Source of the DNA: Niastella koreensis GR20-10
Lineage (GTDB): Bacteria > Bacteroidota > Bacteroidia > Chitinophagales > Chitinophagaceae
NCBI RefSeq assembly: GCF_000246855.1
Contig: NC_016609.1
Location: 6,026,744 to 6,090,743 of the forward strand
Direction of reading: 5' to 3'
Length of the DNA stretch: 64,000 nt
Below are positions 37,991 through 55,519 of the stretch, in pieces. The notes under the pieces were generated by a model. The model saw only the letters and a list, made by a program, of their open reading frames with translations, made no database searches and had not been told where the DNA came from. The translations under genes were made by a program, and so were the position numbers. Every line of letters starts with the position of its first letter. Within the stretch, counting starts at the first letter, position 1.

Positions 37991-38042
37991 TGTTAACCTG
38001 TTAACTTGTCAACCCTGTCAACTCTATCAACCCTATCAACCC
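37991..38042. repeat. Tandem 8/9-bp repeat tract
   Basis: Units TGTTAACC, TGTTAACT, TGTCAACCC, TGTCAACTC, TATCAACCC, TATCAACCC follow one another directly, between the divergent starts of the TonB-like and AraC genes. A shorter related tract is at 39134-39168. Confidence 0.75.
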
Positions 38043-38081
38043 GCCTTCCTTAATTACCAATATATTTCCTACTTTCGACCC

Positions 38082-39014
38082 ATGCCATCAAAAAACCTTT
38101 TAGTTAAGGACCTTAACGAATTGTATGATCTCATGGGCATTTCGCATGAAACAATCGATCAATCGTCGGGGTTTTCAATCCTGTACCTGCAGGATGTGTT
38201 CAAAGAATATCCTGTTACCTCCATTCCCTACCGGCCCAATTTCTTCAGCTTTCTTTTTATCAAAGATGCGTTTGGCAATTATACCATCGATGACCTGAGT
38301 TTTCCGATGGTACCCGGTACTGTATATTTCACCAACCCCAGCAACTTCCGCAAATTTGAATGGCATAACATCACCGATACCTGTCTGGTTGTTTTTACTG
38401 AATCCTATTTAAAGGAACAGGTACATCAGGATATCTACCGCGAATTCTCCTTTCTGCTTACCGAAACGGTAGAGCCCCGGGTATTGAAACCCGATCAGTT
38501 TGCGATCATTGAAGAATTATACCAATTCATCTACCGCGAATACCAGGGCGATTCACCCTATAAAAGCAAGATCATTGGCAGCGCCATGGTTACGCTTTTA
38601 TTAAAGATCAAGGAATATTTCTTCCAGGCTTACAACCCTATTTATGAAGGCAACCGCAGCTCGCAGATCGTAAAAACCTTCAAGCAAAACCTGGAACAAC
38701 ATTTCCGGGACCTGGCAAACGGCAAAACCGACACCCAGCTGCGGGTTCAGGATTATGCCGATAAACAATTCCTGCACGTAAACTACCTCTCCAGCGTAAT
38801 TACCAGTAAAACCGGTAAACCCATCACCGCCTGGATCGCCGATAAAACCATTGCCGAAGCCAAAGTGATGCTGCAGGATAAACAAATGAATATTAAGGAA
38901 ATCGCCGGCAGGTTAGGTTTCCTGGAAGCCTCCCACTTCAGTAATTATTTTAAAAAACACACCAGCCAAAGCCCGGCCGACTACCGTAAACAATACCCCC
39001 TCAACAGGCAATAG
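38082..39014 (+). CDS. AraC family transcriptional regulator
   Basis: About 310 residues from the ATG at 38082, chosen because the longer frame upstream reads through the repeat tract as low-complexity Cys/Pro/Tyr. A cupin-like N-terminal half is followed by an AraC domain (about 205-305) with FLHVNYLSSVITSKTGKP and IKEIAGRLGFLEASHFSNYF ending SPADYRK. It is followed on the same strand by an SDR gene, a common regulator-target pair in Bacteroidota. The stop codon lies at the junction of two 7-bp repeat units. Confidence 0.9.
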   Translation: MPSKNLLVKDLNELYDLMGISHETIDQSSGFSILYLQDVFKEYPVTSIPYRPNFFSFLFIKDAFGNYTIDDLSFPMVPGTVYFTNPSNFRKFEWHNITDTCLVVFTESYLKEQVHQDIYREFSFLLTETVEPRVLKPDQFAIIEELYQFIYREYQGDSPYKSKIIGSAMVTLLLKIKEYFFQAYNPIYEGNRSSQIVKTFKQNLEQHFRDLANGKTDTQLRVQDYADKQFLHVNYLSSVITSKTGKPITAWIADKTIAEAKVMLQDKQMNIKEIAGRLGFLEASHFSNYFKKHTSQSPADYRKQYPLNRQ

Positions 39015-39033
39015 GCAATTGACAATAGGCAAT
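39006..39033. repeat. Heptad repeat over the AraC stop codon
   Basis: AGGCAAT, AGGCAAT, TGACAAT, AGGCAAT in direct succession. The TAG stop of the AraC gene (39012-39014) spans the first junction. Confidence 0.75.
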
Positions 39034-39041
39034 CCCTGGTT

Positions 39042-39069
39042 GTGAAACGTCAAACGTCAAACGTGAAAG
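39042..39069. repeat. Heptad repeat
   Basis: GTGAAAC, GTCAAAC, GTCAAAC, GTGAAAG, four direct 7-bp units just after the AGGCAAT tract. A further 9/10-bp tract (TATCAACCC-like) lies at 39134-39168. Confidence 0.7.
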
Positions 39070-39194
39070 GACTCGCGACAAGGCAACATTCCTCACCAAT
39101 TTCATCTCTCACACTTTATTCCCTTTTCCCCTTTATCAACCCTATCAACTTGTCAACTCAATTAACCAACCTGAGATTTTTGTAACTATTAATT

Positions 39195-39203
39195 TAATCT
39201 TTG
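39195..39203 (+). promoter_or_regulatory. -7-like promoter element (TAATCTTTG)
   Basis: TAATCTTTG resembles TAnnTTTG with one extra spacer base, 65 bp upstream of the SDR start. The spacing to a possible -33 TTTG is short. Possible promoter controlled by the upstream AraC regulator. Confidence 0.4.
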
Positions 39204-39268
39204 TACGTTTCAGGCCCTGTTCATGAGCCATCTTTGTGTCATCAAATCAAACAAAAAACAAAGAAATC

Positions 39269-40009
39269 ATGAACAGGTTAAATAACAAAGTAGTATTGAT
39301 TACCGGCGCTTCAAGAGGTATTGGCGCTGCAACAGCTAAAATGATCGCCAGCGAAGGTGCAAAAGTGATCGTTAATTATGCCGGCAGCCAGGCCGAAGCC
39401 GATAAAACCGTACAGGAAATAAAAGACGCCGGCGGCGATGCCATTGCACTGAAAGCCGACGTTAGTAAAGTGAATGAAGTAACTGCCTTGTTCGATGCCG
39501 CTATTGCCCATTATGGCAGAATTGATGTGCTGATCAACAATGCCGGTATCATGATCACCAAAATGTTGAAAGATACCACCGATGAAGATTTTACCCGCCA
39601 GTTTGAAATAAACGTGCGTGGCACCTTTAATACCCTGCGCGAAGCCGCTACCAAACTGGCCGATAATGGTACTATCATCAGCACCTCTACTACGTTAACC
39701 CGCGTTATGGTGCCCACCTACGGAACGTATGCAGCCACAAAAGCAGCTGTTGAACAAATGACCCGCGTATTTGCCAAAGAAATGGGTGCAAGGGGCATAA
39801 CAGTAAATGCGGTAGCGCCTGGCCCAACCAGCACCGAATTATACCTCAAAGGCAAATCAGCCGAAGTGATCGCCCGTCAGGCCGCATTAAATGCATTCAA
39901 CCGTTTAGGAGAAGTAGATGAGATTGCGAAAGTGATCGTTTTCCTGGCCAGCGACGATGCCAAATGGATCAGCGGACAAATTATTGGCGTAAACGGTGCT
40001 ATGGCGTAA
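39269..40009 (+). CDS. SDR family oxidoreductase (FabG-like)
   Basis: About 246 residues from the ATG at 39269. A classical short-chain dehydrogenase: TGASRGIG (nucleotide binding, about 12-19), NNAG (about 90-93), catalytic Ser in ISTSTT, and YAATK with Tyr and Lys (about 154-158), then the VNAVAPGPTSTEL loop. The C-terminal ASDDAKWISGQIIGVNGA is standard. A basic residue after the second strand (NYAGSQAEAD) suggests NADP(H) is possible. Complete and probably functional. It is followed 21 bp later by a SnoaL-like secreted protein, likely the same operon. Confidence 0.92.
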   Translation: MNRLNNKVVLITGASRGIGAATAKMIASEGAKVIVNYAGSQAEADKTVQEIKDAGGDAIALKADVSKVNEVTALFDAAIAHYGRIDVLINNAGIMITKMLKDTTDEDFTRQFEINVRGTFNTLREAATKLADNGTIISTSTTLTRVMVPTYGTYAATKAAVEQMTRVFAKEMGARGITVNAVAPGPTSTELYLKGKSAEVIARQAALNAFNRLGEVDEIAKVIVFLASDDAKWISGQIIGVNGAMA

Positions 40010-40030
40010 CCCCTTCTAAAATTTCAGCTC

Positions 40031-40456
40031 ATGCATAGCTCAACTATATTGGTTGCCGTTGTGTTGCTCACCGGTTGTATGGGCGCAGCGGCACAAAAGG
40101 AGAAAAACAATAATAACTCAAATATTATAAGTATGGATACCAGCAAGCTCACCAACCCTACCGTAAAAGCGGCCTTCCAGGCCTGGCAGGCAGGTGATTC
40201 AAAATTATGGCTCTCTTATTTTACCGCCGATGCGCAATTGCTGGATGATGGTCATCCCCGGAACTTCGCCAATTTTTCTACCGAGGCCATTGGTCACGAA
40301 CGGTTTACCAGCATTGACATTGTGAAAGACAGCGGCCGTTCTATTTATGGACAATTTCACAGCGATACGTGGGGTAATTTCAAAACCTATTTCAAATTTC
40401 ACCTGGATGCCTATAATAAGATCTACAAACTCGAAATAGGACAGGCTGAATATTAA
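40031..40456 (+). CDS. SnoaL/NTF2-like lipoprotein
   Basis: A 141-residue protein. An N-terminal lipoprotein signal (VAVVLLTGC) leads into an Asn-rich linker and a SnoaL-like cone fold (about 35-141: LTNPTVKAAFQAWQAGD, WLSYFTADAQLLDDG, FTSIDIVKD, FHLDAYNKIYKLEI). It follows the SDR gene by 21 bp. Family members range from polyketide cyclases to binding proteins; the role here is not known. Confidence 0.75.
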   Translation: MHSSTILVAVVLLTGCMGAAAQKEKNNNNSNIISMDTSKLTNPTVKAAFQAWQAGDSKLWLSYFTADAQLLDDGHPRNFANFSTEAIGHERFTSIDIVKDSGRSIYGQFHSDTWGNFKTYFKFHLDAYNKIYKLEIGQAEY

Positions 40457-40609
40457 TTCGTAACATATAGCACCTATGGAAGACTAATAGAACAAACCGT
40501 TCGCGCAAGGGAGACTTATCGCTGGTAAGGCTCTTCCTGCGTTTGGAGAAAGCACGAATGAATTTGCAAATAAGGTCCCATCATTTTATATTTGGAGTAC
40601 ATCCTTATT

Positions 40610-41038
40610 ATGAAACGTAACAAGGTATTTTTATATTCATTGGCCATTCAGGTTGCATTGTCGCAATTGCTGCTTTTTATTTTCGTTCCTGATGCAGATT
40701 TATTCAGCTGCATTAAAGCTATACTGGTAACATGCGCCCTATGGGCGCTCGGACTGTTCTTTGGCGTTACATTTTCAATAATTGTTAGAAAGCCCAATAT
40801 TGAAACCTGGTTGTACATCTGCGGACAGCTTTTGGTCTACACGCTGTTATCTGCATATATTAGCATAAACCAGGATGACTTCAAAAAGCACGGAGGTATT
40901 TTAAAACCAGAGTGGCATTTAATACCGGATTCACGCAGGGAAAAAAAAGAAGAGATCGATACGTTTCTTGATTCAATACCCGATTTGCCCGATGCGCTGA
41001 AGCAACAAATTAGAGATTCCATATTTAAGGACAAATAA
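40610..41038 (+). CDS. Hypothetical membrane protein
   Basis: About 142 residues from the ATG at 40610, which begins a basic residue run then three or four hydrophobic helices (about 8-28, 38-62 and 75-95). The tail is charged and soluble (about 100-142) and ends LPDALKQQIRDSIFK. No family recognised. A terminator hairpin follows. Confidence 0.55.
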   Translation: MKRNKVFLYSLAIQVALSQLLLFIFVPDADLFSCIKAILVTCALWALGLFFGVTFSIIVRKPNIETWLYICGQLLVYTLLSAYISINQDDFKKHGGILKPEWHLIPDSRREKKEEIDTFLDSIPDLPDALKQQIRDSIFKDK

Positions 41039-41052
41039 GTTTTTTAAGAAAA

Positions 41053-41086
41053 GCTAAAAGGGACCCGCTGCATCCGGATCCCTTTC
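41053..41086. terminator. Terminator
   Basis: AAAGGGACCCG and CGGATCCCTTT form a stem with one mismatch over a CTGCATC loop. It lies 15 bp after the membrane protein gene and could also serve the convergent gene at 41170. Confidence 0.65.
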
Positions 41087-41169
41087 GTTTGAAGGCGGAA
41101 ACACTATGACTTACAAAAAACAAGTACTGTACGGATTACTGATTGCAGCGCCTTAGGTTTTTCATAGTA

Positions 41170-41673
41170 CTAATTTTCAGCTCTTACCTTCTCTATCTTT
41201 TCACGTAACTGATGAGCTTCCTTTTCAAAATCGGCAATATGGTATACGTTGTGCTCGAGGTGATCGTAAAACTTAAGGAACTTCTCATCGTCAACCTTTC
41301 GGAACTTAAGTTCAACACCTATCCTGGTAGTAATGTGTTCCTTTTTCTGTTCCTTCCCCTCTATTGTAAACGGCTGCTTAACATTCACCACCATGTTTCC
41401 GCTGACTGCATCGAGCGGAAACACTTCAAATGAGTAAATGCCATTGTGTTCAACGATCAGCAGCTTACGGGCTTTTTCATCGATGATCACAGTTTGATGC
41501 ACCAGCTGTTTACGATAATAATTGGTAATACCGGTTTGCCGGGTGGCTTCCGTTATATAGGCGTTTATCTTTTGCTGTGCTTTTTTTCTACGCCTTTTAC
41601 TGGCGTTATTCAAGACGATAATTACAACTACTATTGGTACTAATAGCATTAGTACTATCACTACATCTGACAT
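41170..41673 (-). CDS. Hypothetical protein with N-terminal membrane helix
   Basis: 167 residues. One N-terminal transmembrane helix (about 3-24, VVIVLMLLVPIVVVIIVL) is followed by a basic stretch (ASKRRRKKAQQK) and a soluble cytoplasmic beta domain that ends in a charged helix (about 130-165). KARKLLIVEHNGIYSF and then IEGKEQKKEHITTRIGVELKF suggest a beta-sandwich. I do not recognise the family. Confidence 0.55.
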   Translation of the reverse strand: MSDVVIVLMLLVPIVVVIIVLNNASKRRRKKAQQKINAYITEATRQTGITNYYRKQLVHQTVIIDEKARKLLIVEHNGIYSFEVFPLDAVSGNMVVNVKQPFTIEGKEQKKEHITTRIGVELKFRKVDDEKFLKFYDHLEHNVYHIADFEKEAHQLREKIEKVRAEN

Positions 41674-41703
41674 AATTCAATAAGTTTAGGTAATACAATT
41701 CCG

Positions 41704-41726
41704 TTAATGATCATTGAGATCATTAA
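41704..41726. repeat. Inverted repeat TTAATGATC/GATCATTAA
   Basis: A 9-bp perfect inverted repeat with a 5-nt loop in the gap between two minus-strand genes. It could be an operator for the gene at 41673 or a weak terminator. Confidence 0.45.
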
Positions 41727-41759
41727 ACACCAGGGTTCTGTTTTAAAAAACAAAACTGC

Positions 41760-42125
41760 TTACCAGAAGTAGTGATTGGGAAAGAGCAGTAACCGGATGA
41801 ACGAAGACCAATGCGGTGTGGGAAAAGCGTTGATGCGTTTACGCAGGTTGCCTGAAATATAATTGCTAAGACGGCCCACCATTACAGAAGCATCTGTATC
41901 CCGGTGGTCTCTTACATTAAACGCAACGCAATTAAACTGAAAAGAAGTGGCTGCTTCACCTAAATGATTGGGTGAAAAATCATTAGCCAGGATTGAAGTA
42001 TTCTTTTCGTGAGATATATTATTTGATGGCAACGTGGTTCCTGCATCGGCAGTAAATCCCGTTACCAGTTGAACAAATAATAGTAATAATGTAAATAAAT
42101 ACCTCACGCGGCAAATGTAGCCCAA
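41760..42125 (-). CDS. Hypothetical exported protein
   Basis: 121 residues with an N-terminal signal peptide (RYLFTLLLLFVQLVTGFTADA). A polar middle follows, then FNCVAFNVRDHRDTDASVMV and an aromatic C-terminus. The first few residues before the signal may not be translated. No family recognised. Confidence 0.45.
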   Translation of the reverse strand: MGYICRVRYLFTLLLLFVQLVTGFTADAGTTLPSNNISHEKNTSILANDFSPNHLGEAATSFQFNCVAFNVRDHRDTDASVMVGRLSNYISGNLRKRINAFPTPHWSSFIRLLLFPNHYFW

Positions 42126-42169
42126 TATATGCGCAAATCAAAGCAAATGCGCGGATAAACAAGTCATCG

Positions 42170-42583
42170 TCATAATATTAACACAATTGTTCCGGCTATT
42201 ATCAGTAATGCGCCAATAGCAGCTTTTAAAGAAAGTGCTTCCCCTAATATTACAACAGACAATACAATAGTCAATGCTACACTTAGTTTATCAACCGGTG
42301 CTACCTGCGATACTTTACCAACCTGTAATGCTTTGAAATAAAATACCCAGGATAAACCAGTTGCAACTCCGGAAATGATAAGGAAGATCCAGTTTTGTTT
42401 TGACAAAGCAGGCAAACCTTTTTCTTCACCTCTTGCCAAAACAATACCCCAGGCAACCAGCAGTATTATAATAGCACGTATGGCAGTTGCCAGGTTTGAA
42501 TTGACACCTGTTATTCCAATTTTTGCAAAAATGGCTGTTAACGAAGCAAACAGCGCAGATAGTAATGCATAGATCCACCACAT
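42170..42583 (-). CDS. EamA-type single-domain transporter
   Basis: A 137-residue protein with five predicted helices. It is one EamA module: WWIYALLSALFASLTAIFAK, then IRAIIILLVAWGIV, and GLSWVFYFKALQVGKVSQV near the end of helix 4. Full DMT transporters carry two modules (about 290 residues); half-size members like this work as dimers. The substrate is unknown. It lies 27 bp downstream of the PAP2 gene on the same strand. Confidence 0.85.
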   Translation of the reverse strand: MWWIYALLSALFASLTAIFAKIGITGVNSNLATAIRAIIILLVAWGIVLARGEEKGLPALSKQNWIFLIISGVATGLSWVFYFKALQVGKVSQVAPVDKLSVALTIVLSVVILGEALSLKAAIGALLIIAGTIVLIL

Positions 42584-42610
42584 ATTTCCAATTTAATAAA
42601 AAAGCACCAA

Positions 42611-43940: not shown

Positions 43941-43951
43941 TGCATCCAAAT

Positions 43952-43994
43952 AAAAACGCACTCCATTGGTTTGATCCATTTGTGGGTGCGTTTT
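43952..43994. terminator. Terminator
   Basis: AAACGCAC and GTGCGTTT form a stem over a large loop, with TTTT on the plus strand. It separates the small protein gene from the antiporter gene. Confidence 0.6.
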
Positions 43995-44021: not shown

Positions 44022-45638
44022 ATGCAGCATCTTTTTATCCAATATGTTTATCTCATTTTAATTATTCTGGCCCTGGTCATGTTCGCCAACAAGCTGCGGC
44101 TGGCTTACCCCATCGTTTTGGTAGTGGGCGGACTGGCGCTCAGTTTTACAACTACATTTTCAAACATCACCATAGATCCTGAACTGGTATTCTTTATATT
44201 TCTTCCACCCCTGCTGTTCGATTCTGCCTGGCAGGTGTCGTGGAAAGAATTCTGGAAATGGCGGCGGGTGATAACCAGTTTTGCATTTCCCATTGTAATT
44301 CTTACCTCTTCGGTAATTGCCGTTGTATCATGGGCCTGTATCCCGGGCTTTACCCTGGCATTGGGATTTTTATTAGGCGGCATTGTTTCCCCGCCCGATG
44401 CCATTTCGGCCAGCACCATCATGCGGCAGGTAAAAGTGCCAAAGGGTTTGGTGAGTATTGTTGAAGGGGAGAGCCTGCTCAACGACGCCTCTTCACTTAT
44501 CGTTTTCCGGTTTGCTATTGCAGCGGTAATAACCGGACAGTTTCATATGTCGGAAGCAGTGGGTAGCTTTTTCCTGGTAATTATAATGGGTACATTGATC
44601 GGCCTTGCCATCGGATTTATTTTCTATGCCATTCATAAATGGCTGCCAACGACACCCAGCATCGAGATCATTTTGACCCTGGTGGTTCCCTACTGCATGT
44701 ATTACACGGCAGAGCATTATCATTTTTCAGGGGTATTATCTGTTGTAAGTGGAGGCTTATTATTATCTGCGCAGCGGCACCGCATGTTAAGTTACCGCAG
44801 CCGGATTGAAGGGGTGAACGTATGGGCAAACCTGGTGTTTATCCTGAACGGGCTGGTGTTTATGCTGATCGGGTTGCAATTGCCTTCCATAATAAATCAA
44901 TTGGGTGATGATATCAGTGTGGGCAGTGCTATTGGCTATGGGTTAACCATTTCCCTGGCGCTAATCGTTTGCCGGCTGCTTTGCACCCTCGGCGCATCTG
45001 TGTTTACCGTGTTCATCAGCCGGTATATTACAGTGGCAGATAACAGCCCCGGTTGGCGAAATCCGCTTATCATTGGCTGGGCCGGTATGCGTGGTGTGGT
45101 ATCATTGGCAGCGGCCTTGTCAATTCCCCTGCTTGCCAGCAACAACCAGGCTTTTCCCTATCGCAACCTCATACTTTTTATAACTTTTATTGTAATCCTG
45201 GTTACATTGGTATTTCAGGGACTTACCCTGCCCTGGCTCATCAGGAAATTAAAACCAACACCAGTCCACAATACCATCCCGGAAAACATCCAGGAGTTGA
45301 ACATTCAGAAAAAGATTGCCAAATGTTCCATTGAATTTCTGGAGGCCAAAGCCAATGAAGGAAAGAACGTGAGCGAGCATTTGAAGAACCTGCATGAGAG
45401 ATTGAAGATCGATATGAAATTACTGACCGAGCAACTGGATTCATCAGAAAACAACCCGGAAAGAAGTATCCGGAATTTTCAACTCATTTACCTGGAGCTG
45501 TTGGAAAAACAACGCACTACATTGAACAGAGTGAATCACCTGCAGGAATATGATGAAGAACTGATCAGGAAATACATGTCACTGATTGATATCGAAGAAT
45601 ACAAGATCCGGGAAAAAATGGTTGAAGAAAGTGCTTGA
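44022..45638 (+). CDS. Na+/H+ antiporter, CPA1 family
   Basis: About 538 residues from the ATG at 44022. Further in-frame ATGs at 43971 (inside the terminator stem) and 44004 are less likely. About 12 membrane helices occupy the first 420 residues. CPA1 motifs visible are PLLFDSAWQ (helix 4-5), SPPDAISAST (ion-binding Asp) and EGESLLNDASSL. A soluble cytoplasmic tail of about 120 residues, charged and helical, follows the last helix (LPWLIRKLKP). It exchanges Na+ or K+ for protons. The stop codon is the start of an 8-bp repeat tract. Confidence 0.9.
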   Translation: MQHLFIQYVYLILIILALVMFANKLRLAYPIVLVVGGLALSFTTTFSNITIDPELVFFIFLPPLLFDSAWQVSWKEFWKWRRVITSFAFPIVILTSSVIAVVSWACIPGFTLALGFLLGGIVSPPDAISASTIMRQVKVPKGLVSIVEGESLLNDASSLIVFRFAIAAVITGQFHMSEAVGSFFLVIIMGTLIGLAIGFIFYAIHKWLPTTPSIEIILTLVVPYCMYYTAEHYHFSGVLSVVSGGLLLSAQRHRMLSYRSRIEGVNVWANLVFILNGLVFMLIGLQLPSIINQLGDDISVGSAIGYGLTISLALIVCRLLCTLGASVFTVFISRYITVADNSPGWRNPLIIGWAGMRGVVSLAAALSIPLLASNNQAFPYRNLILFITFIVILVTLVFQGLTLPWLIRKLKPTPVHNTIPENIQELNIQKKIAKCSIEFLEAKANEGKNVSEHLKNLHERLKIDMKLLTEQLDSSENNPERSIRNFQLIYLELLEKQRTTLNRVNHLQEYDEELIRKYMSLIDIEEYKIREKMVEESA

Positions 45639-45684
45639 GTTTGTAAGTTATTAAGTTCGTTAGTTCAAGGTTGAAAGTTTAAAG
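45637..45684. repeat. Octad repeat starting at the antiporter stop codon
   Basis: GAGTTTGT, AAGTTATT, AAGTTCGT, TAGTTCAA, GGTTGAAA are successive 8-bp units. The first overlaps the TGA stop (45636-45638). G/C-rich filler follows to 45757. Confidence 0.65.
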
Positions 45685-46013: not shown

Positions 46014-48068
46014 ATGGCAGTTACTTCACAAAGGAAGAAAAAGACTGTTGGGGTACGCCGGCGCAAAAGCGCGGCGCCCACCGGTAAAGCAGGGGTAAAA
46101 GCCCCCTTCCCCACCGGCTTCGCCCCCATGCTGGCCACGCTGGTTGATAAACCTTTTGATGCCGATAACTGGTTGTTTGAGGTAAAATGGGATGGCTACC
46201 GGGCTGTGGCGCATTGTGATGGCAAACAGGTGTCGGTTATTTCGCGCAACAATAAATCATTCAACGAAAAATTCTATCCCATTACTGCTGCCCTGGAGGA
46301 ATTAAATCTTCATGCCGTGCTGGATGGGGAGATCATTATTTCCAATAAAGAAGGCGTCTCCAGTTTTGGCGACTTGCAGAACTGGCGCAGCGAAGCTGAT
46401 GGTGAATTGTTGTATTATGTATTTGACCTGTTATGGCTGAATGGGTATTTGCTCATTGACCTGCCATTACAACAACGCAGGGACATCCTGAAAAAAATGC
46501 TGCCGCAGCATCCAACCATACAGCTAAGTCAATCCTTTGAGGCCCCCGGTACTCAATTTTACGAAATGGCCAAAGAGATGAACATGGAAGGCATCATTGC
46601 CAAAAAAGCCGACAGTGTGTACGTGCCGGGTGTTCGCTCAAAAGACTGGCTGAAGATAAAGATCGCAAAGCGGCAGGAAGTAGTGATCGGTGGTTATACC
46701 CACAACGAAGGTTCTTCCAAATTATTCAGCTCGCTGCTGGTGGGTGTTTTTGAAAATGGGGTGTTGCATTACACCGGCAAAATAGGCACCGGTTTTACCG
46801 ATAAAGACCAGCGCGATATGATGGAACAGTTTAAACCACTGGTGCGTAAAAGCTGTCCGTTTGGAACAGAACCCGATTATAACAAGCCATCCCGGTTCCG
46901 CCCTAATCCGCCAAAAGCGACAGCAATCTGGTTAAAACCCCAACTGGTTTGCGAAGTAGCATTTGCCGAGATCACCAGCGATGGCGTTATGCGGCATCCT
47001 TCATTTGAGGGCATGCGCATTGATAAAAAAGCAACCGACGTAAAAGCTGAAAAAGCCAGGCCGCTGAAGATAGTAGCGCCCGAATCCATTCTGCATAAAG
47101 AAAAAATACTCACCCGCCGCTCAGCCGCCGAACGTAAAACCTTATTAAACCCCGGCGAAAAACAACAGGAAAGGTCCATCAACGGATATAAACTAAAATT
47201 CAGCAACCTCAACAAAATCTACTGGCCCAAAGAAAAGATCACCAAGCGCGATTTGCTGAATTATTATTACCAGGTGTCGCCGGTTATTTTACCTTATTTG
47301 AAAGACCGGCCCCAATCGATGAACCGGTTTCCCAATGGCATTGATGGCGAAAGCTTTTACCAGAAAAATGTAACAGGTAAAATTCCAGACTGGATCAACA
47401 CTTTTCCGTATACCGATAAAAGCGTCAAAAAAAGCTTCCTGGTACCGGTGCGGGAAGCAGATGTATTATATATGGCTTCGCTGGGCTGCATTGAAATGAA
47501 CCCCTGGAGCAGCCGGGTGCAAAAACCCGACAATCCCGACTGGTGTATCATTGACCTCGACCCCGATACCAATACGTTCGAGCAGGTAATAAAAACCGCC
47601 CAGGTTACACATGAGCTCCTGGATAGCGCGGGTATTCCCAATTACTGTAAAACATCCGGTTCAACCGGCATTCATATTTATATGCCGCTGGGCGCTAAAT
47701 ATGTGTATGAAGCTTCCCGGGAGTTTGGCCGCCTCATTGCTACCATGGTGCACGAACAGCTACCCCGGTTCACCAGTATTGAACGGCAAACGGCCGATAG
47801 AAAAGGAAAGATCTACATCGACTTTTTACAGAACCGCCCACAAGCCACCCTGGCCTGCGCCTACTCCCTTCGCCCCAAACCCGGGGCTACGGTTTCCATG
47901 CCTTTGCATTGGGAAGAAGTTAAGAAAGGGCTTAAAATGAAAGACTTCACCATTCACAATGCAGTGGCCCGCATTAAAGAACAGGGCGATATTTTTAAGC
48001 CGGTGCTGGGTAAAGGCATTAATATGAAAAAAGCAATCGAATCCCTTCAAAAGCTTTTACATTCCTAG
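46014..48068 (+). CDS. ligD: DNA ligase D, ligase and polymerase domains
   Basis: A 684-residue bacterial NHEJ ligase. An ATP-dependent ligase domain (about 36-340) has the active-site Lys58 in FEVKWDGYR, then GEIIISNKEG and EGIIAKK, and an OB fold after it. An archaeo-eukaryotic-primase-like polymerase domain (about 395-684) has LDPDTNTFEQV, YCKTSGSTGIHIYMPL and SLRPKPGATVSMPLHW. The N-terminal phosphoesterase domain found in Pseudomonas LigD is absent, and no Ku gene is in this window. It probably repairs double-strand breaks with a Ku encoded elsewhere. A remarkable 21-bp repeat array starts at its stop codon. Confidence 0.95.
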   Translation: MAVTSQRKKKTVGVRRRKSAAPTGKAGVKAPFPTGFAPMLATLVDKPFDADNWLFEVKWDGYRAVAHCDGKQVSVISRNNKSFNEKFYPITAALEELNLHAVLDGEIIISNKEGVSSFGDLQNWRSEADGELLYYVFDLLWLNGYLLIDLPLQQRRDILKKMLPQHPTIQLSQSFEAPGTQFYEMAKEMNMEGIIAKKADSVYVPGVRSKDWLKIKIAKRQEVVIGGYTHNEGSSKLFSSLLVGVFENGVLHYTGKIGTGFTDKDQRDMMEQFKPLVRKSCPFGTEPDYNKPSRFRPNPPKATAIWLKPQLVCEVAFAEITSDGVMRHPSFEGMRIDKKATDVKAEKARPLKIVAPESILHKEKILTRRSAAERKTLLNPGEKQQERSINGYKLKFSNLNKIYWPKEKITKRDLLNYYYQVSPVILPYLKDRPQSMNRFPNGIDGESFYQKNVTGKIPDWINTFPYTDKSVKKSFLVPVREADVLYMASLGCIEMNPWSSRVQKPDNPDWCIIDLDPDTNTFEQVIKTAQVTHELLDSAGIPNYCKTSGSTGIHIYMPLGAKYVYEASREFGRLIATMVHEQLPRFTSIERQTADRKGKIYIDFLQNRPQATLACAYSLRPKPGATVSMPLHWEEVKKGLKMKDFTIHNAVARIKEQGDIFKPVLGKGINMKKAIESLQKLLHS

Positions 48069-48248
48069 GATTTTATACTGTTTTCCCAGGATTTCGATAT
48101 GAAATCCCAGGAATTTATATCATTATCCTGGGATTTGATACCATTATCCTGGGATTTCACTATGTTTTCCCAGGATTTCATACCATAATCCTGGGATTTG
48201 ATACCGTTTTCCCATGAAAACTATACGAAATCCCAGGATAATTCCTTC
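48060..48248. repeat. Nine-unit 21-bp tandem quasi-palindrome array
   Basis: Nine contiguous units of exactly 21 bp begin at 48060, 48081, 48102, 48123, 48144, 48165, 48186, 48207 and 48228. Each carries ATCCTGGGAT or its complement ATCCCAGGAT (or a near match) at the same offset, followed by TTNNATAC-like bases. Unit 1 contains the ligD stop codon. 21 bp is two helical turns, so all cores face the same side. It lacks CRISPR-type unique spacers. Confidence 0.85.
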
Positions 48249-49704: not shown

Positions 49705-49798
49705 TTCTTACTTGTAATTACTTATCGTTAAACAGCTTAAAACCAACATTCAAAATTTAAATCGCTCCCGAAAACAATCGGGATTCAACCAAAATATT

Positions 49799-50683: not shown

Positions 50684-50705
50684 AAATAACGAACTCCGAA
50701 TAATA

Positions 50706-50737
50706 ATGTCGAATGTTGAGGTACATTCGACATTTTT
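50706..50737 (+). terminator. dapA terminator
   Basis: An 11-bp perfect stem (ATGTCGAATGT against ACATTCGACAT) over a 6-nt loop followed by a T-run. Confidence 0.85.
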
Positions 50738-50756
50738 CATTTAAGTAGGTTTATAC

Positions 50757-50791
50757 TTCAACATTCAATATTCAACATTTGATATTCATCA
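50757..50791. repeat. Heptad repeat ending in the rnz stop codon
   Basis: TTCAACA, TTCAATA, TTCAACA, TTTGATA, TTCATCA, five direct 7-bp units. The last three bases of the last unit are the complement of the rnz TGA stop (50789-50791). Confidence 0.75.
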
Positions 50792-51700
50792 TTTCTGCGG
50801 AGCACGAAACGTAACACCTTCCAATGCCAGGCTGGTATTGGGGAACACCTCGATGGCTTCCTGTTCAAACACCTCCAGCTTATCGTATTTTGAGCTAAAA
50901 TGACCTATGAGCAAACGCCCTACGTTGGCGTTTTTGGCAATCCGGGCAGCCTGTTGGGTAGTGGAGTGAAAACGCATGGCAGCCCTCATTTCCAGGTCTT
51001 TTAAGTAAGTTGTTTCGTGGTATAGCAGGTCAACGCCTTTTACCTTTTCTATCAGTTCTTCATCATAAATGGTATCGGCGCAATAGGCGTATGACAACGG
51101 CTTAACGCCGGGATTGGTCACCAGTTCATTTTCTATCAGTTCCCCGCTTTTGGTAGTATAATCTTCCCCCCATTTAAGGCGGTCGTAAAACGCGGCCGGT
51201 ACGCCATATTCAATCGCCTTTTCAGGATTAACGCGGCGCGGCGCCCGCACCTGGTCGAACCTGAAACCCCAGCAGGGAATGCGGTGCTTGGTGGCAAAAC
51301 AGGTTACTCTGAATTTATCGTTCTGTACAATCACGCCCTCCCCTTCCAACGGATGAAAATACAGGGGGTACGACAATTGATTGGAGGCAGCCTCCAATTG
51401 TAAGTCCAGTATTTGTTTTAAAGGAGCCGGGGCAAATAAATGCAGCTCATTCTCGCGATGCAGCAGCCCCATACTGTGTAGTAAACCCGGTAAACCAAAA
51501 TAGTGGTCGCCATGCAGGTGGGAAATGAAAATATAGTTGATGCGCGACCAGCGGATGCGGTATTTCACCAGTTGCTGCTGGGTGCCTTCGCCACTATCAA
51601 CCAGGAACAAATTATCATCCAGCGTCACTACCTGCGACGTGGGATGCCGGTCGTACGCCGGTAAGGCAGAATTATTTCCCAGTATAGTAACAGCCAGCAT
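50789..51700 (-). CDS. rnz: Ribonuclease Z
   Basis: A 303-residue metallo-beta-lactamase-fold nuclease. The zinc ligands in ISHLHGDHYFGLPGLL (HxHxDH), the motif in AYCADTIYDEEL, YHETTYLKD and the late LLIGHFSSKYDK His are all present. It trims the 3' trailer of tRNA precursors. Divergent from other genes, with its 3' end facing dapA. Confidence 0.93.
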   Translation of the reverse strand: MLAVTILGNNSALPAYDRHPTSQVVTLDDNLFLVDSGEGTQQQLVKYRIRWSRINYIFISHLHGDHYFGLPGLLHSMGLLHRENELHLFAPAPLKQILDLQLEAASNQLSYPLYFHPLEGEGVIVQNDKFRVTCFATKHRIPCWGFRFDQVRAPRRVNPEKAIEYGVPAAFYDRLKWGEDYTTKSGELIENELVTNPGVKPLSYAYCADTIYDEELIEKVKGVDLLYHETTYLKDLEMRAAMRFHSTTQQAARIAKNANVGRLLIGHFSSKYDKLEVFEQEAIEVFPNTSLALEGVTFRAPQK

Positions 51701-51880
51701 TCAATTCATTAAAGGGTGATCATTTTGTTTAAGACGGCTTCATAAGTCATTCTGCTGCATTTCATTGCACAAATTTATGTAATAGCCACCTAACCCGTTA
51801 TCCACTTATTACCTCCTACTCACCATTTATTACATAATACTTGCAATTTTATCCTTCTTCCTTCAAAAATATAACGTAAA

Positions 51881-52744
51881 TCAATACCGCCGGATTGTAT
51901 GCATAATGTCGGCCAGGTAGCTTTTGCCAAATAAATTCAGGTGAATCAGCAATGGGTATAAGTTGCACACTTCCCATTGCTGTCTGTAATTAACAGGCAG
52001 GGGGTAATGATAGTTGTAGCTCTCATAAAACAGGTTGCCGAATCCTCCAAACAAGGTGGTCATAGCCATATCAATACTGCGATGGCCATAATATACCGCC
52101 GGATCGATCAGCACCGGATTTTCCGAAGCATCACATACAAAATTACCACTCCACAGGTCGCCATGTAACAACGCAGCCGGTTCCGGTGCAAACAGATTGC
52201 CCAGCCGCTGATACAGCTTTTCAAATTGCTGTACCTGGGCCGGTTCCAGCAATTGACGGTTAACGGCCAGTTTTACCTGTGGCTGCAGCCTTTGTTGAAT
52301 AAAAAAATCGGTCCAGTTACCGGCAGGTTGATTGCTTTGCGGCAGCGAGCCCATGTAATTGTCAGTGGGCAGGCCAAATTGTTTGCCTTGGATATGATGT
52401 AAAGCAGCCAGTTGTTCGCCAAAGCAGGTCCAGAAAGCATCAGTTTGTAAACCCTGTTCTATCCATTCCAGGATCAGAACCTGGTGCCCGCCGTTTTGGC
52501 CACTGGCAATAACCCGTGGGATCCGGATCACCTGTTGCTGCGCCAGCAGCTCCAGGCCCTGCCGTTCCGTTTCAAACAGATCTGGCATTGCCGCCAGTTC
52601 GTTGATCTTGCAAAAGAAGTTTTCTTTTCCGGCAGTAATCCGGTACGTATGATTGATGGAACCTCCTCCTACCGGAGTATATGTAATGGGGGCTTTACTA
52701 TTTAGTAGTTGCTGAATTAAAGATTGTACTGCAGGCGTGATCAT
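51881..52744 (-). CDS. Fructosamine kinase family protein
   Basis: A 287-residue kinase-like protein: a GGGSINHTYRI N-lobe loop, the ATP-lobe strand NFFCKIN, catalytic LLHGDLWSGNF (HGDxWxxN), and LIDPAVYYGHRSIDMAM holding the metal-binding Asp. This is the fructosamine-3-kinase/ketosamine kinase family, which phosphorylates sugars on glycated proteins. Length normal. It is preceded by an 8-bp repeat/hairpin region and heptose kinase gene. Confidence 0.9.
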   Translation of the reverse strand: MITPAVQSLIQQLLNSKAPITYTPVGGGSINHTYRITAGKENFFCKINELAAMPDLFETERQGLELLAQQQVIRIPRVIASGQNGGHQVLILEWIEQGLQTDAFWTCFGEQLAALHHIQGKQFGLPTDNYMGSLPQSNQPAGNWTDFFIQQRLQPQVKLAVNRQLLEPAQVQQFEKLYQRLGNLFAPEPAALLHGDLWSGNFVCDASENPVLIDPAVYYGHRSIDMAMTTLFGGFGNLFYESYNYHYPLPVNYRQQWEVCNLYPLLIHLNLFGKSYLADIMHTIRRY

Positions 52745-52745
52745 A

Positions 52746-52822
52746 AGTTACAGTTCTTAAGTTATTAAGTTCGTAAGTCCCGGGTTCAACCAAAGAACTT
52801 AATAACTTACGAACTTATAAAC
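52746..52822. repeat. Octad repeats forming an inverted repeat
   Basis: GTTCTTAA, GTTATTAA, GTTCGTAA are consecutive 8-bp units; a complementary set (TTAATAAC, TTACGAAC, TTATAAAC) follows. AAGTTATTAAGTTC and GAACTTAATAACTT give a 14-bp stem, so it may end transcription of the heptose kinase gene. Confidence 0.65.
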
Positions 52823-52826
52823 CGGC

Positions 52827-53825
52827 TCAGGACTTCAACAATAATTTGCACTCGTGTAGTAACCTGTCTTTATTCACAGCCGCGGTTCCCACTTCCTCAC
52901 AAACCAATCCACCCGCAATATTGGCCACTTCGGCCATCAGGTCAATCCGTTTGGTAGCGGCATAGATCAGGGAAGCCACGGCTATTACCGTATCCCCGGC
53001 GCCCGACACATCGGATATATTCCGTAAGTGTGAAGGAATGATTTTGGCATCGCTGTTCTGCTGGTAAAACACACCCTTTTCAGACAGCGTAATAAAGGAG
53101 ATAGCGTGTTGTAATTTCTTTTGTAACTGCTGGTGAATATCGTTCAGAGTTACCAGGTTAACATCATCTATCAGCAGGTTCAACCCGTCTTTTACCTCTT
53201 TCAAATTTGGCTTGAAAATATCAACGCCCTGGTAGCTGAAGAAGTTTTTTCGTTTGGGATCTACCGTGGTTATAACACCATGTTGTTTACACAGGGCTGT
53301 CACTTCTTTTATCACGCGCTCGGTCAATACCCCTTTATTGTAGTCTTCAAAAATGATTACCTGCGGCTTTTCCGTAGCAATATACTGATGCACTTTTTCC
53401 AACAGGGCATTCTCATCATCGGCACTCAGATCTTTGGTGATCTCTGCATCCAGCCGCATCATTTGCTGGTTACGGCTTATAATGCGGGTTTTGGCAGTAG
53501 TAATACGGGAGTTTTGTTTGGCTACCCAGTTGGTATTAATGTGGTGTTCGTTAAACAAATGGGTTAAGGTATGGCCATTTTCATCTTCACCCATTACCGA
53601 GAGTACGGCTACCTGGGAGCCCAGGGCGGCCAGGTTCAACGCCACATTACCGGCTCCACCTATCCGGTGTTCTTTTTTATCCAGCGCAACAACAGGCACC
53701 GGCGCTTCGGGCGATATCCTTTCCACATGTCCCCACCAGTAAATATCCAGCATTACATCACCTATCACCCCGGCTTTGATATTGGAAAAATCAGCAAAAA
53801 GTTGGTCGAAATTAATTGTATCCAT
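52827..53825 (-). CDS. rfaE1: D-glycero-beta-D-manno-heptose-7-phosphate kinase
   Basis: A 332-residue PfkB-family sugar kinase matching the kinase half of HldE: GDVMLDIYWWGHVERISPEAPVPVV (first part of the family signature), GGAGNVALNLAALG, and the catalytic SGAGDTVIAV near the end. It phosphorylates heptose 7-phosphate at C1 in the ADP-heptose pathway for lipopolysaccharide. The cytidylyltransferase half is not fused, so it must be a separate gene, as in many Bacteroidota. Confidence 0.92.
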   Translation of the reverse strand: MDTINFDQLFADFSNIKAGVIGDVMLDIYWWGHVERISPEAPVPVVALDKKEHRIGGAGNVALNLAALGSQVAVLSVMGEDENGHTLTHLFNEHHINTNWVAKQNSRITTAKTRIISRNQQMMRLDAEITKDLSADDENALLEKVHQYIATEKPQVIIFEDYNKGVLTERVIKEVTALCKQHGVITTVDPKRKNFFSYQGVDIFKPNLKEVKDGLNLLIDDVNLVTLNDIHQQLQKKLQHAISFITLSEKGVFYQQNSDAKIIPSHLRNISDVSGAGDTVIAVASLIYAATKRIDLMAEVANIAGGLVCEEVGTAAVNKDRLLHECKLLLKS

Positions 53826-53837
53826 ACTATAAAAATA

Positions 53838-53875
53838 TTACCTGTTTGCAGTTACCGGTAACTGCAAACAGGTAA
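53838..53875. repeat. Perfect 38-bp palindrome
   Basis: TTACCTGTTTGCAGTTACC is followed at once by its exact complement with no loop. The right half continues as heptads GGTAACT, GCAAACA, GGTAACC, GGCAACT, reaching the stop codon of the APC permease (53883-53885). Possible cruciform or terminator between the heptose kinase and permease genes. Confidence 0.8.
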
Positions 53876-53882
53876 CCGGCAA

Positions 53883-55316
53883 CTAAGCTGTTTTCTTATT
53901 TCGCACTGCAAGATAATACAAAGGAACGCCCGCCAAAACAATTCCAAAACCAATACCTGCGTATTTAGGTTTCATTTGAATAAGAAAAACACAAAATGTA
54001 AGGGCAAGAATAATATAAATAATGGGTAATACGGGATAGCCGAATGCTTTATAAGGCCGCTCCGCATCCGGACGCTTTTTGCGCAGGATGAAAATACCCA
54101 GAATGGTAACTGCATAAAAAAGTACGGCAACAAAAGCGATCATATCCAGCAGGTCGCCATAACTACCGCTTAAACACAGAATGCCCGCCATAGCTGCCTG
54201 GATCCACAAAGCAAATTCAGGCACGGCGTTTTTGTTCAGTGTGCCGGTTTTCTTAAAAAACAGGCCGTCCTTGGCCATGGTATAATATACCCGGGCGCCG
54301 GCCAGAATAAGACCGTTATTACAACCAAAGGTGGAAACCATGATCATGACGGCTATTACGTAAGCGCCATTAGGACCAAATATTGACTCCGCTGAAATTA
54401 CCGCTAACCTTCTCGACGGGGCAAATGCGATGTCGTGTAGAGGCAGCACATTCAGGTACATCAGGTTAGCAGCTACATAAATAATGGTTACAATAAGTGT
54501 CCCCAGAAACAGGCTGAGCCCAATGTTTCTTTTAGGGTTTTTTATTTCGCCGGCAATAAAGGTTACGTTGTTCCAGCTATCGCTGCTGAAAATTGAGCCC
54601 GACATGGCTGAGGCGATGGCGCCTATCAACACAATTCCGCTAATGGGTAACCAGGAACCATCATCTGCAGCAGTGCCAGCCGGATTTTTAGTAAAGTGCA
54701 CCGCATTCATGCCCGTTGCCAGGTTTTCGGACCAAAAGCTATGTTTCACCAACAGAAAACCAAGGATGATCAATCCAAACAAAGAAAACAGCTTTACACT
54801 GGTGAATATGGTTTGAATGATCTTTCCCCCTTTAATTCCCCGGGAGTTGGTATAGGTAAGAAATATGATCAGAAAAATGGCCAGTATCTGGGCAGCAGAT
54901 ACTTTGAACGTGCCAATGGTAAGCAGTATAACATCTTCGCCTACCTCTGGTATCAAATACGCCGTAAAACGGCTAAAAGCTACCGCTACAGCCGCAATGG
55001 TGGCGGTTTGTATTACGGCAAAAAAACTCCAGCCATATAAAAAACCGGCTAAAGGATTAAAAGCCTCCCTGAGGTAAACATATTGGCCACCCGCTTTCGG
55101 AAACATGCCACTTAGCTCCCCGTAACTTACAGCAGCTACAATCGTCATAAAACCGGTGATCAGCCATACCGCTATTATCCAGCCGGCACTGCCTACATCC
55201 TTGGCAATATCTGAAGTAACAATAAAGATACCCGAACCAATCATTGAACCGGCTACCACCATGGTAGCGTCTATTAAACTAAGGGATGGTTTAAATGAAG
55301 AAGCGTGTTCTGCCAT
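53883..55316 (-). CDS. APC family amino acid permease
   Basis: A 477-residue protein with 12 membrane helices. The N-terminal helix 1 loop MVVAGSMIGSGIFIV (Gly-rich break of the APC fold), EAFNPLAGFLYGW after helix 2-3, and FSSDSWNNVTFIAGEIKNP after helix 5-6 are typical of the LAT-like amino acid/polyamine transporters. The substrate cannot be assigned. The gene is complete, and its stop lies within a heptad repeat. Confidence 0.92.
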   Translation of the reverse strand: MAEHASSFKPSLSLIDATMVVAGSMIGSGIFIVTSDIAKDVGSAGWIIAVWLITGFMTIVAAVSYGELSGMFPKAGGQYVYLREAFNPLAGFLYGWSFFAVIQTATIAAVAVAFSRFTAYLIPEVGEDVILLTIGTFKVSAAQILAIFLIIFLTYTNSRGIKGGKIIQTIFTSVKLFSLFGLIILGFLLVKHSFWSENLATGMNAVHFTKNPAGTAADDGSWLPISGIVLIGAIASAMSGSIFSSDSWNNVTFIAGEIKNPKRNIGLSLFLGTLIVTIIYVAANLMYLNVLPLHDIAFAPSRRLAVISAESIFGPNGAYVIAVMIMVSTFGCNNGLILAGARVYYTMAKDGLFFKKTGTLNKNAVPEFALWIQAAMAGILCLSGSYGDLLDMIAFVAVLFYAVTILGIFILRKKRPDAERPYKAFGYPVLPIIYIILALTFCVFLIQMKPKYAGIGFGIVLAGVPLYYLAVRNKKTA

Positions 55317-55440
55317 ATTGGGTAGATAATAGTAAGAAAATCAGATTTTAACCCGCTCAAGATAAGGAACTAATCCGAATAGCATCTATCCCCAATTTCC
55401 ACAATCCGGGCAATTATTATCCAGTTTTAACGGCAATAGG

Positions 55441-55519
55441 TAAAAGCCAAAAGCCTAAAGCTTAAAGCAAATACATATTACTTTAAACTTTAGGCTTTTA
55501 CCTTTCAGCTTTAGGGTTA
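55441..55519. repeat. Two heptad tracts; the second ends in the OmpH stop codon
   Basis: TAAAAGC, CAAAAGC, CTAAAGC, TTAAAGC, then, after a 11-bp gap, ACTTTAA, ACTTTAG, GCTTTTA, CCTTTCA, GCTTTAG, GGTTA. The tracts are partly complementary, and the second ends at the complement of the OmpH TAA (55517-55519). Confidence 0.75.

Follow-up and report, generated by a model that had tools for sequence, protein, structure and literature searches.

The window, a 64-kb stretch of the Niastella koreensis GR20-10 genome, contains a series of short tandem arrays of degenerate 7-, 8- or 9-bp units (Table 1). Eight of them had been described in a first-pass annotation and all eight are present where it had placed them, although a scan for tracts of period 7, 8 or 9 (score >= 11) picks up only six, the arrays at 45637-45684 and 53857-53884 falling under the threshold yet being legible by eye. 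The array at 39132-39166 had been overlooked and is also under the scan threshold. The earlier proposal that arrays take in the stop codon of the neighboring gene holds for the five genes named (AraC, antiporter, rnz, permease and OmpH), whose stops are contained in an end unit or extend into one. The array at ligD was rightly said to start on a stop codon as it contains the TAG of ligD. This TCCCAGGATTT array is, however, a different repeat with a longer period. At 37991-38042 the genes on either side are divergent and the array has no tie to a stop. The permease array is adjoined by an inverted partner at about 53838-53856 with a predicted stem of 18 bp, and for the pair at OmpH a stem of 23 bp plus 6 is predicted. 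A search of the window with Rfam at gathering scores returned nothing besides one tRNA.

Table 1. Repeat arrays in the window (unit length in bp in brackets)
Feature	Position	Strand	Context
GTTRACNN (8) + GTTGAYANN (9) array	37991..38042	-	between TonB_C gene and AraC gene
CAATNGN array (7)	39006..39033	+	contains TAG stop of AraC gene, 39012-39014
GTGAAAC/AAACGTS array (7)	39042..39069	+	behind CAATNGN array 39006..39033
TATCAACNN/GTCAACNN-type array	39132..39166	-	reverse complement of GTTGAYANN/GTTRACNN
GTTNNTAA-type array (8)	45637..45684	+	begins in TGA stop of Na/H antiporter gene, 45636-45638
21/42/63-bp TCCCAGGATTT array	48063..48239		begins in ligD stop codon
ATRTTGA array (7; plus-strand TTCRAYA)	50757..50791	-	includes rnz stop 50789-50791; convergent dapA/rnz gap
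GTTNNTAA array (8) + inverted partner	52746..52822		predicted hairpin, PfkB-type gene to fructosamine-kinase-type gene
GTTNCCG-type array (7)	53857..53884	-	begins in TAG stop of amino-acid permease gene, 53883-53885
AANGCNN array (7) + inverted partner	55441..55519		begins at OmpH TAA stop 55517-55519

A genome-wide class with a preferred period

How common are such arrays in the genome? The scan, which covered 2.06 of 9.03 Mb, found 327 tracts of period 7, 8 or 9, mostly intergenic, as compared to 1, 0 and 3 tracts in three shuffles. Intergenic runs of eight matches number 686 at lag 7, 167 at lag 8 and 52 at lag 9 versus 13, 9 and 9 in dinucleotide shuffles, the autocorrelation excess without which the first-pass annotation would have given up its proposal, while lags 5, 6 and 10 stay near chance (12, 19 and 9 versus 11, 11 and 10) and lags 14, 21 and 16 show block duplication of units. 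Strict tracts (score >= 14) are distributed between intergenic and genic DNA as 106 to 10 for period 7, 56 to 0 for period 8, 11 to 2 for period 9 and 11 to 0 for period 11, and none is intergenic at periods 5, 6 and 10 (0/1, 0/2 and 0/0). Together with the stop bias given below, these counts support a single genome-wide class with a preferred period of 7, 8 or 9 linked to stop codons and confirm that the observation is genome-wide and far beyond chance. Single tracts are weak, and reversed-pattern controls do score in some relatives (54 versus 295 in N. populi, 38 versus 55 in genome G007), which would be compatible with chance or a low-complexity artefact. In N. koreensis, however, the reversed controls reach only 5 versus 76 and, in another count, 0 versus 377, and the lag-run excess and the shuffle tract counts already refute this reading, to which we attach practically no probability.

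The units, of 7 or 8 and less often 9 bp, consist of a fixed core and two to three nearly free positions at a fixed phase. Eleven families were named, including GTTRACNN, TAATNNGN, GTSAGTN, CAATNGN, AANGCNN and GTTNCNN, and most of them recur at many loci; therefore the earlier statement that a period, not a sequence, is shared is half right, correct for the preferred period but not for the cores. Neighboring units differ at core positions mostly at a rate of 0-0.1, with some half-free positions up to 0.3, in a test that tolerates at most one core change and thus favors the core. The rate is 0.53-0.82 at 17 of the 20 free positions and 0.29, 0.39 and 0.47 at the remaining three. The arrays are thus long simple sequence repeats (LSSR) in the wide sense, with tandem units of 5-11 nt, heptamers as the commonest and an excess between genes; the near-identical units of LSSR are not found, as shown by these 17 free positions.

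Arrays and stop codons

Where do the arrays lie relative to genes, as called with our own simple hexamer model? In the 2.06 Mb, 117 of 365 array-stop pairs fall within -12 to +6 bp versus 54 expected (where a convergent gap is very short, one array may count at both stops), and the bias to stop codons on which the proposal equally depended is therefore real; array-start pairs at starts are rarer than expected (11 versus 31). Arrays of 9-bp units are less frequent at stops (5/33 versus 138/290). Behind stops, the arrays point in the same direction in 125 of 134 cases, which means consistency within nine families rather than nine free choices, since family labels and direction X were picked from the same data. 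On the coding strand, arrays at stops contain more G than C in 109 cases, less in 23 and equal amounts in 11 (n = 143), and the reverse holds in tandem gaps for arrays no more than 60 bp from the following start (13, 35 and 4; n = 52). The G-richer strand is hence usually the coding strand near stops and the opposite strand near starts, as in GGGNATC-type repeats.

The sense strand of arrays behind stops is generally rich in stop triplets, though not in every family. The density of stop triplets in arrays is 0.103 per nt on the sense and 0.057 on the antisense strand, with 0.083 (sd 0.005) in the unit-permuted null. When the period is not divisible by three, a stop triplet repeated along the array comes to lie in each reading frame in turn. 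By unit length, a further stop in every frame within 42 nt is found at 51/57 stops with 8-bp, 27/81 with 7-bp and 0/5 with 9-bp arrays. The exceptions are GTTNCNN (13 arrays at stops) and GGCARAN (6), whose sense strand is nearly devoid of stops, and GTTNNTAA (6), in which the antisense strand carries more stops than the sense strand.

Such numbers could reflect a selected translation fail-safe, in which arrays would be kept because they place a stop in each of the three frames immediately after the natural one, whence periods 7 and 8 and a stop-rich sense strand. In line with it, 555 sense stops are found versus 379 expected from composition, all three frames are covered at 78/143 array-bearing stops versus 244/1532 others, and the natural stop is TAG in 50/119 array-bearing versus 284/1447 other cases. 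Moreover, position R of GTTRACNN, which differs in 47% of neighboring units, yields a stop with either A or G (TGA or TAA), and the sense excess recurs in 26 arrays of related species, 5 of genome G082 and 15 of other genera. Yet antisense stops also exceed composition (309 versus 263), the three exceptional families do not fit, three-frame coverage in related species is not raised (7/26 array stops versus 43/197), 1532 of 1675 called genes manage without an array at the stop, and the inverted arms and the keeping of whole cores would be left without explanation. We therefore regard a selected fail-safe as unlikely.

Inverted partners and transcript ends

Many arrays come with an inverted partner, and the order is X and then inverted X in 113 of 116 cases; in 104 tandem or convergent gaps one orientation lies on one family's sense side. 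Counted family by gap, 89 gaps contain only X, 58 only the inverted arm and 49 both. Single elements fold into long predicted stems, and a perfect stem of at least 12 bp is present in 33% of 183 array gaps versus 11% of 789 array-free gaps. Stem pairing as a constraint was rejected, as the two arms of an element agree at free positions scarcely more often than do arms of different elements, whether aligned from the inside or in best register; the exception is AANGCNN (z 3.2), with GTTNCNN (1.6) and GTTRACNN (1.5) leaning the same way. Since free positions are hardly matched although long stems are more frequent in array gaps, pairing matters at most in part. A covariation alignment of seven orthologous gaps contains many alignment gaps.

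Are the arrays terminators? The hairpin followed by a T run that characterizes intrinsic terminators is rare after array stops, being found in 6/49 convergent gaps of 60-300 bp versus 62/188 array-free ones and in 6/65 tandem gaps of that length versus 94/438, in a comparison uncorrected for the space that the array occupies. With the array elsewhere in the gap terminators are rarer as well, at about 0.16 in convergent and 0.12 in tandem gaps. Folding of arrays is somewhat raised in convergent gaps, but in tandem gaps it does not exceed that of ordinary 3' flanks (35% of arrays versus 38% of flanks with z < -3). Rho-like C-spaced sites were set aside because families such as TAATGTGA contain almost no C.

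Arms in fixed order bring to mind mobile palindromic elements, REP- or MITE-like, that a transposase acting in trans would have landed beside stops. A REP/RAYT element is a palindrome of conserved sequence tied to a Y1 transposase gene. The common middle of about 38 bp between the arms of the GTSAGTN family in N. koreensis (38 bp in 8/11 pairs), presence or absence at orthologous gaps and the patchy distribution among relatives would suit such elements, but unlike copies of an element the arrays vary almost at random at their free positions from unit to unit and from locus to locus, Sediminibacterium elements with the same arms carry a different middle, and one-arm gaps are many. Furthermore, Y1 (RAYT-type) genes number two in N. 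koreensis, with matches in 107/147 genomes of the family, and the one inspected lies in ordinary array-dotted surroundings with no link to arrays seen. Mobile elements hence appear to be an improbable source.

Relatives, known repeats and possible origin

When orthologous stops are compared between related species, the array often belongs to another family or is missing. Three orthologous gaps examined across ten species show a nearly constant position of the stop with or without array, and a stop identity that is mostly kept at two gaps and variable at the third. Thus the notion that the tract supplies the stop codon stands insofar as stops lie in end units, but not in the sense that the stop depends on the array. 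The distribution is patchy; the near relative N. vici has few arrays and Sediminibacterium is array-rich. In eight loci of other genera, selected for having arrays out of 64 non-close loci among the best 80 of 312, arrays at starts (11) and stops (15) are nearly equal. In a separate comparison, hits of loci L211 and L246, being runs of N, were left out. That relatives often show another repeat in the corresponding place indicates that something maintains rhythm and place while the letters change.

Among open-licence PMC papers, no description of such arrays in Chitinophagaceae was found. Cyanobacterial STRR heptamers are sequence-conserved units such as CCCCAGT. The likeness to STRR suggested at first holds in kind but not in sequence, as pairs of CCCCAGT and CCCCTAG, the two STRR units tried, number 0 in 2.06 Mb. 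Among known repeats, the intergenic heptamers of Xanthomonas/Nostoc and those of Beggiatoaceae come closest; they have strand or position rules in common with the arrays but not the sequence. Rehm et al. (2015, PMC4692102) describe G-rich heptamers in Xanthomonas and Nostoc, GGGNATC and GGGGA(C/T)T, that are intergenic and rare between divergent genes, sometimes overlap the stop and vary in length and sequence between species. Less than 50 bp from stops they are found mostly on the coding strand, near starts on the non-coding strand, and inverted copies are mentioned. The 7-bp unit, with a free position in GGGNATC, the intergenic location, the rarity between divergent genes, the stop/start strand rule, the overlap with some stops, the inverted copies and the variation between species are alike; eleven named AT-richer cores, additional 8- and 9-bp units and per-site family changes between species set the present arrays apart. 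Pairs of GGGNATC or GGGGAYT units number 0 in 2.06 Mb, and G-quadruplexes were rejected, the motif being present in 1/327 arrays. MacGregor (2015, PMC4679880) describes TAACTGA direct repeats in Beggiatoaceae, some Cyanobacteria and five Bacteroidetes as exact 7-bp intergenic units, mostly just upstream of starts, that in forward orientation place stops in all frames and partly overlap stop codons. Shared with these are 7-bp intergenic direct repeats, stop overlap and occurrence in Bacteroidetes, whereas the cores here are many and degenerate and the favored place is behind stops; TAACTGA pairs number 0 in 2.06 Mb. PMC4679880, naming Mrazek 2007, gives heptamers as the commonest longer unit of long simple sequence repeats; slippage favored at 7 nt is put forward for heptamers there and in PMC4692102. 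The dominance of heptamers and the G-richer strands behind stops are left open in both papers (PMC4692102, PMC4679880).

How could the arrays arise? Tentatively, with somewhat less than even confidence, we favor fast-replaced degenerate repeats that a copying process advancing by 7-8 nt at a time would produce and that would be retained wherever they form a harmless 3' boundary. Units would be gained and lost by copying with this preferred step, for example slipped-strand copying, and the inverted arm could stem from template switching. The core might be kept for re-annealing or some sequence-specific recognition, with the free positions left to drift. At gene ends arrays may persist for being harmless and acting as 3' boundary, in which case the array would replace the usual 3' flank and terminator. 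This copying view is supported by 1) the period specificity, 2) the place at stops, 3) the orientation in 125/134, 4) the order in 113/116, 5) family replacement at orthologous stops, 6) the low variation of the core next to that of the free positions, 7) the density of sense stop triplets and the three-frame coverage of arrays at stops, 8) the scarcity of 9-bp arrays and of hairpin-plus-T-run terminators there, 9) the block duplication at lags 14, 21 and 16 and 10) the slippage at 7 nt put forward for heptamers in the literature. Against it speak GTTNCNN and GGCARAN with virtually no sense stops, the antisense-richer GTTNNTAA, related species without raised three-frame coverage, arrays almost as frequent near starts in the eight chosen loci of other genera, terminators that are rarer also with the array elsewhere in the gap, the lack of a folding gain in tandem gaps and the failure to find an enzyme. 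Slippage and mutation alone would not be expected to yield, locus after locus, a constant core whose free positions keep the same phase, which leaves the constraint on the core unaccounted for, and as 1532/1675 genes lack an array at the stop, such a boundary is not needed in general.

Many unrelated families in the same positions, N. vici with few arrays and the exchange of families in this genus allow the shared features, namely the 7-8 step, strand, place and core plus free positions, to be separated from sequence. Why the period is not divisible by three finds a concrete and testable explanation in the stop content of the sense strand.

Alternatively, the arrays could be arrays of binding sites, with cores recognized by RNA- or DNA-binding proteins such as Bacteroidota single-RRM proteins and free positions as spacers, for which TRAP or Hfq sites are analogies. 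Kept core, free spacer and fixed orientation on the transcript would agree, and RRM_1 matches are plentiful (12 in N. koreensis). Many proteins would, however, be required to recognize at least eleven cores that are exchanged at a given site, and with 9 matches in N. vici, 8 in each Paraflavitalea and 1 in the array-rich Sediminibacterium, RRM numbers fail to separate array-rich from array-poor genomes, which makes binding sites quite unlikely.

It could finally be imagined, albeit as a very improbable case, that the cell writes the arrays, an enzyme extending the DNA of gene ends by re-annealing on the 4-6-nt core and filling two to three positions almost randomly, like a low-fidelity telomerase or a DRT10-type reverse transcriptase. 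Rhythm and place would then be inherited and sequence families exchanged between species. According to a preprint (PMC12632851), DRT10 telomerase-like reverse transcriptases make tandem-repeat DNA, with a 9-nt unit in one system, through re-annealing on a short template segment that is itself repeated, and the product is cDNA in phage defence. Tandem-repeat DNA is thus the likeness, and a cDNA product serving phage defence the difference. We know of no link of DRT10 to genomic arrays. No enzyme behind the arrays was found among the candidates. Match counts, taken without typing of genes, of Y1 transposase, reverse transcriptase (RVT_1), LigD polymerase and RRM proteins do not follow array abundance. 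LigD polymerase is absent from 3/22 genomes, including the array-rich Sediminibacterium, and present in N. vici and Paraflavitalea/Pseudoflavitalea.

Excess, position and orientation of the arrays

The first-pass annotation had listed at least eight tracts with a period of 7, 8 or 9 bp between 37991 and 55519 of the window, proposing that the period is shared and that the tracts often supply a stop codon. All eight were found in place, five of them containing or running into the stop of an adjacent gene, and both the shared period and the link to stop codons hold in a larger sample. This sample comprises the window (G000:C1:6026744-6090743 of the host genome, a single contig of 9,033,684 bp; gene identities from Pfam) and five 400-kb blocks of the same genome (2.0 Mb), with 1,676 genes called in 2,064,000 bp by a simple hexamer model. 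Tracts of these periods exceed chance. Across 290 kb of intergenic sequence, eight-match runs number 686, 167 and 52 at lags 7, 8 and 9, versus 13, 9 and 9 in dinucleotide shuffles; the multiples are also prominent (lag 14, 823; lag 21, 652; lag 16, 184), and counts at lags 5, 6 and 10 are close to chance. At a score of at least 11 for periods 7, 8 and 9, 327 tracts are mostly intergenic (192, 102 and 33, respectively) and 38 genic, versus 1, 0 and 3 tracts in three rounds of shuffled intergenic DNA. Density is highest in convergent gaps (1.86 per kb), followed by tandem (1.18) and divergent gaps (0.53). Outside the 7/8/9 class, host intergenic DNA has excesses at lags 4 (62 vs 18) and 11 (86 vs 10) and 11 tracts of period 11.

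Measured against random positions inside the same gap, 117 of 365 array-stop pairs lie at -12 to +6 bp from the stop (54 expected), and start codons have 11 arrays versus 31 expected. Among arrays of at least three units in nine families, 125 of the 134 within 15 bp of a stop (tandem and convergent gaps summed) share one direction, X, which like the family labels was taken from the same data. For facing arrays of one family up to 150 bp apart, X comes first and its inverse second in 113 of 116 cases, and in some of the convergent gaps listed the two arms abut both stops. The coding strand has G>C in 109 of 143 arrays at stops (G<C in 23, equal in 11), a bias that is reversed in the 52 tandem-gap arrays near the next start (13, 35 and 4, respectively). 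The same strand rule is reported for GGGNATC repeats (PMC4692102).

Stop triplets, folding and terminators

In arrays at stops the density of stop triplets per nt is 0.103 for the coding strand and 0.057 for the opposite strand, with a null of 0.083 (sd 0.005) from permuting positions inside units; composition alone predicts 379 sense and 263 antisense stops versus 555 and 309 observed. Tandem-gap arrays more than 30 bp from a stop show no strand difference (0.073 vs 0.074). A further stop in all three frames follows within 42 nt of the natural stop at 78 of 143 array stops versus 244 of 1532 others and, as expected, this coverage depends on the period (8-bp, 51/57; 7-bp, 27/81; 9-bp, 0/5 arrays). 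The 9-bp arrays are rarer at stops (5/33 vs 138/290), maybe for the simpler reason that they often follow an 8-bp array. Against the stop-triplet pattern, GTTNCNN and GGCARAN arrays are almost devoid of sense stops, and GTTNNTAA arrays are richer in stops on the opposite strand. TAG is over-represented among stops at host arrays (50/119 vs 284/1447).

The sense bias is kept at 26 array stops of related species (eight plus one extra stretch; 0.088 vs 0.035), where three-frame coverage is not raised (7/26 vs 43/197). Five such arrays in the compared genome G082 give 0.080 versus 0.019, with coverage of 1/5 versus 3/18. In 15 arrays from eight loci of other genera, chosen for their arrays, both features are kept (0.121 vs 0.055; 8/15 vs 23/134). 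Arrays at stops and starts number 26 and 9 in the related species, 5 and 1 in G082, and 15 and 11 at the chosen loci, where the stop preference is therefore weak.

Could RNA base pairing shape the arrays? Strong folding is seen in eight chosen single elements (z from -4.3 to -7.4). Compared with random samples of array-free flanks, arrays at stops fold somewhat better in convergent gaps (z < -3 in 60% of 55 vs 44% of 90) and no better in tandem gaps (35% of 72 vs 38% of 90). The free positions of paired arms match within an element hardly more than between elements; base pairing therefore seems not to be the main constraint. Array stops are less often followed by a hairpin-plus-T-run terminator (convergent, 6/49 vs 62/188; tandem, 6/65 vs 94/438), and such terminators are likewise rarer in gaps where the array sits away from the stop.

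Unit anatomy and turnover

Units keep a core of about 4-6 nt and leave the two or three remaining positions almost free.

Array families and the longer-period array
Feature	Period (bp)	Position	Remark
GTTRACNN, TAATNNGN, GTTNNTAA	8		
GTSAGTN, CAATNGN, AANGCNN, GTTNCNN (with GAACTNN), ATRTTGA, AATGARA, GGCARAN	7		
GTTGAYANN	9		
TCCCAGGATTT array	21/42/63	window 48063-48239	begins inside ligD stop codon

Relative to the preceding unit, the share of cases with a difference is mostly 0-0.1 at core positions and reaches 0.3 at half-free ones. Of the 20 free positions, 17 give 0.53-0.82 and the other three 0.29, 0.39 and 0.47. For some families, the core of the unit that follows two seed units is either intact or lost (GTSAGTN: intact 37, a single change 3, less 30; GTTGAYANN: 39, 4 and 44), and for others one-off changes concentrate at a half-free position or two. 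The second neighbour resembles a unit more closely than the first does in several families, and the lags 14, 21 and 16 show that blocks of two or three units have been duplicated. By inspection, some of the AANGCNN arrays listed (e.g. at host 1118922 and 3160694) begin with predominantly AACGC units, which give way to AAGGC and then to AAAGC as the middle is approached.

Around the permease, gene order and nearly identical stop positions are kept in ten species, and behind the OmpH stop these carry, by eye, AANGCNN-like arrays (three), TAATNNGN (two), a GTTNC-like array (one) or none (four). The convergent dapA/rnz gap holds arrays of four families in eight of nine species, N. vici having none at threshold 9. 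Triplet counts differ a hundredfold inside the genus: 2 to 502 for GTTRACNN, 15 to 1477 for AANGCNN and 0 to 208 for GTSAGTN (nine genomes searched), although reversed controls also give appreciable counts in N. populi and G007.

Beyond the genus, GTTRACNN triplets occur in 2 of 296 phylum genomes, the host and one with a perfect microsatellite, and CAAT triplets in 30 of 147 family genomes. Around rnz, related or other families occur at some Flavihumibacter, Foetidibacter, Sediminibacterium and Terrimonas loci, and no arrays of period 7 or 8 were found at seven Paraflavitalea, Pseudoflavitalea, Flavitalea and Puia loci. Sediminibacterium goheungense is rich in GTSAGTN (254 triplets, control 0), with a middle between the arms unlike the host's. 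Clean microsatellites, unlike the host's degenerate arrays, consist of exact CAATAGT units in G150, G025 and G081 and of GTTGACCA in G204. At a locus of Foetidibacter luteolus, GTGAATGG/GTGAGTGG arrays precede a block of the type GGGGGCATTTCATTCTTC...CCTTGTTCGATATTC repeated in more than one tandem copy.

Origin and known relatives

The period, core-plus-free units, position, strand, arm order and turnover of the arrays are established. They are inferred to be made and remade by copying in steps of 7-8 nt, the core being retained by something that requires it, either re-annealing or recognition; gene ends would tolerate the arrays and perhaps make use of them. No enzyme was identified among Y1 transposase, reverse transcriptase, LigD polymerase and RRM matches, which do not track array abundance in the genomes compared. 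Two adjacent reverse-transcriptase matches (RVT_1) lie at G000:C1:7487833-7490264.

Heptamers of like kind are described for Xanthomonas and Nostoc (PMC4692102), and for the similar TAACTGA repeats of Beggiatoaceae the author already points out stops in all frames (PMC4679880). The host arrays have other unit sequences; pairs of Xanthomonas/Nostoc heptamer units or of TAACTGA number 0 in 2.06 Mb of host DNA. As far as literature searches show, four features are new: the coexistence of many degenerate families in a single genome, units of 8 bp, the exchange of families at orthologous stops and a measured stop content for the sense strand. Stretches of CCTGGGATTT, similar to the TCCCAGGATTT array, come after arrays at host 108811 and 1169103, and the array at the ligD stop may thus be a dispersed longer-period repeat.
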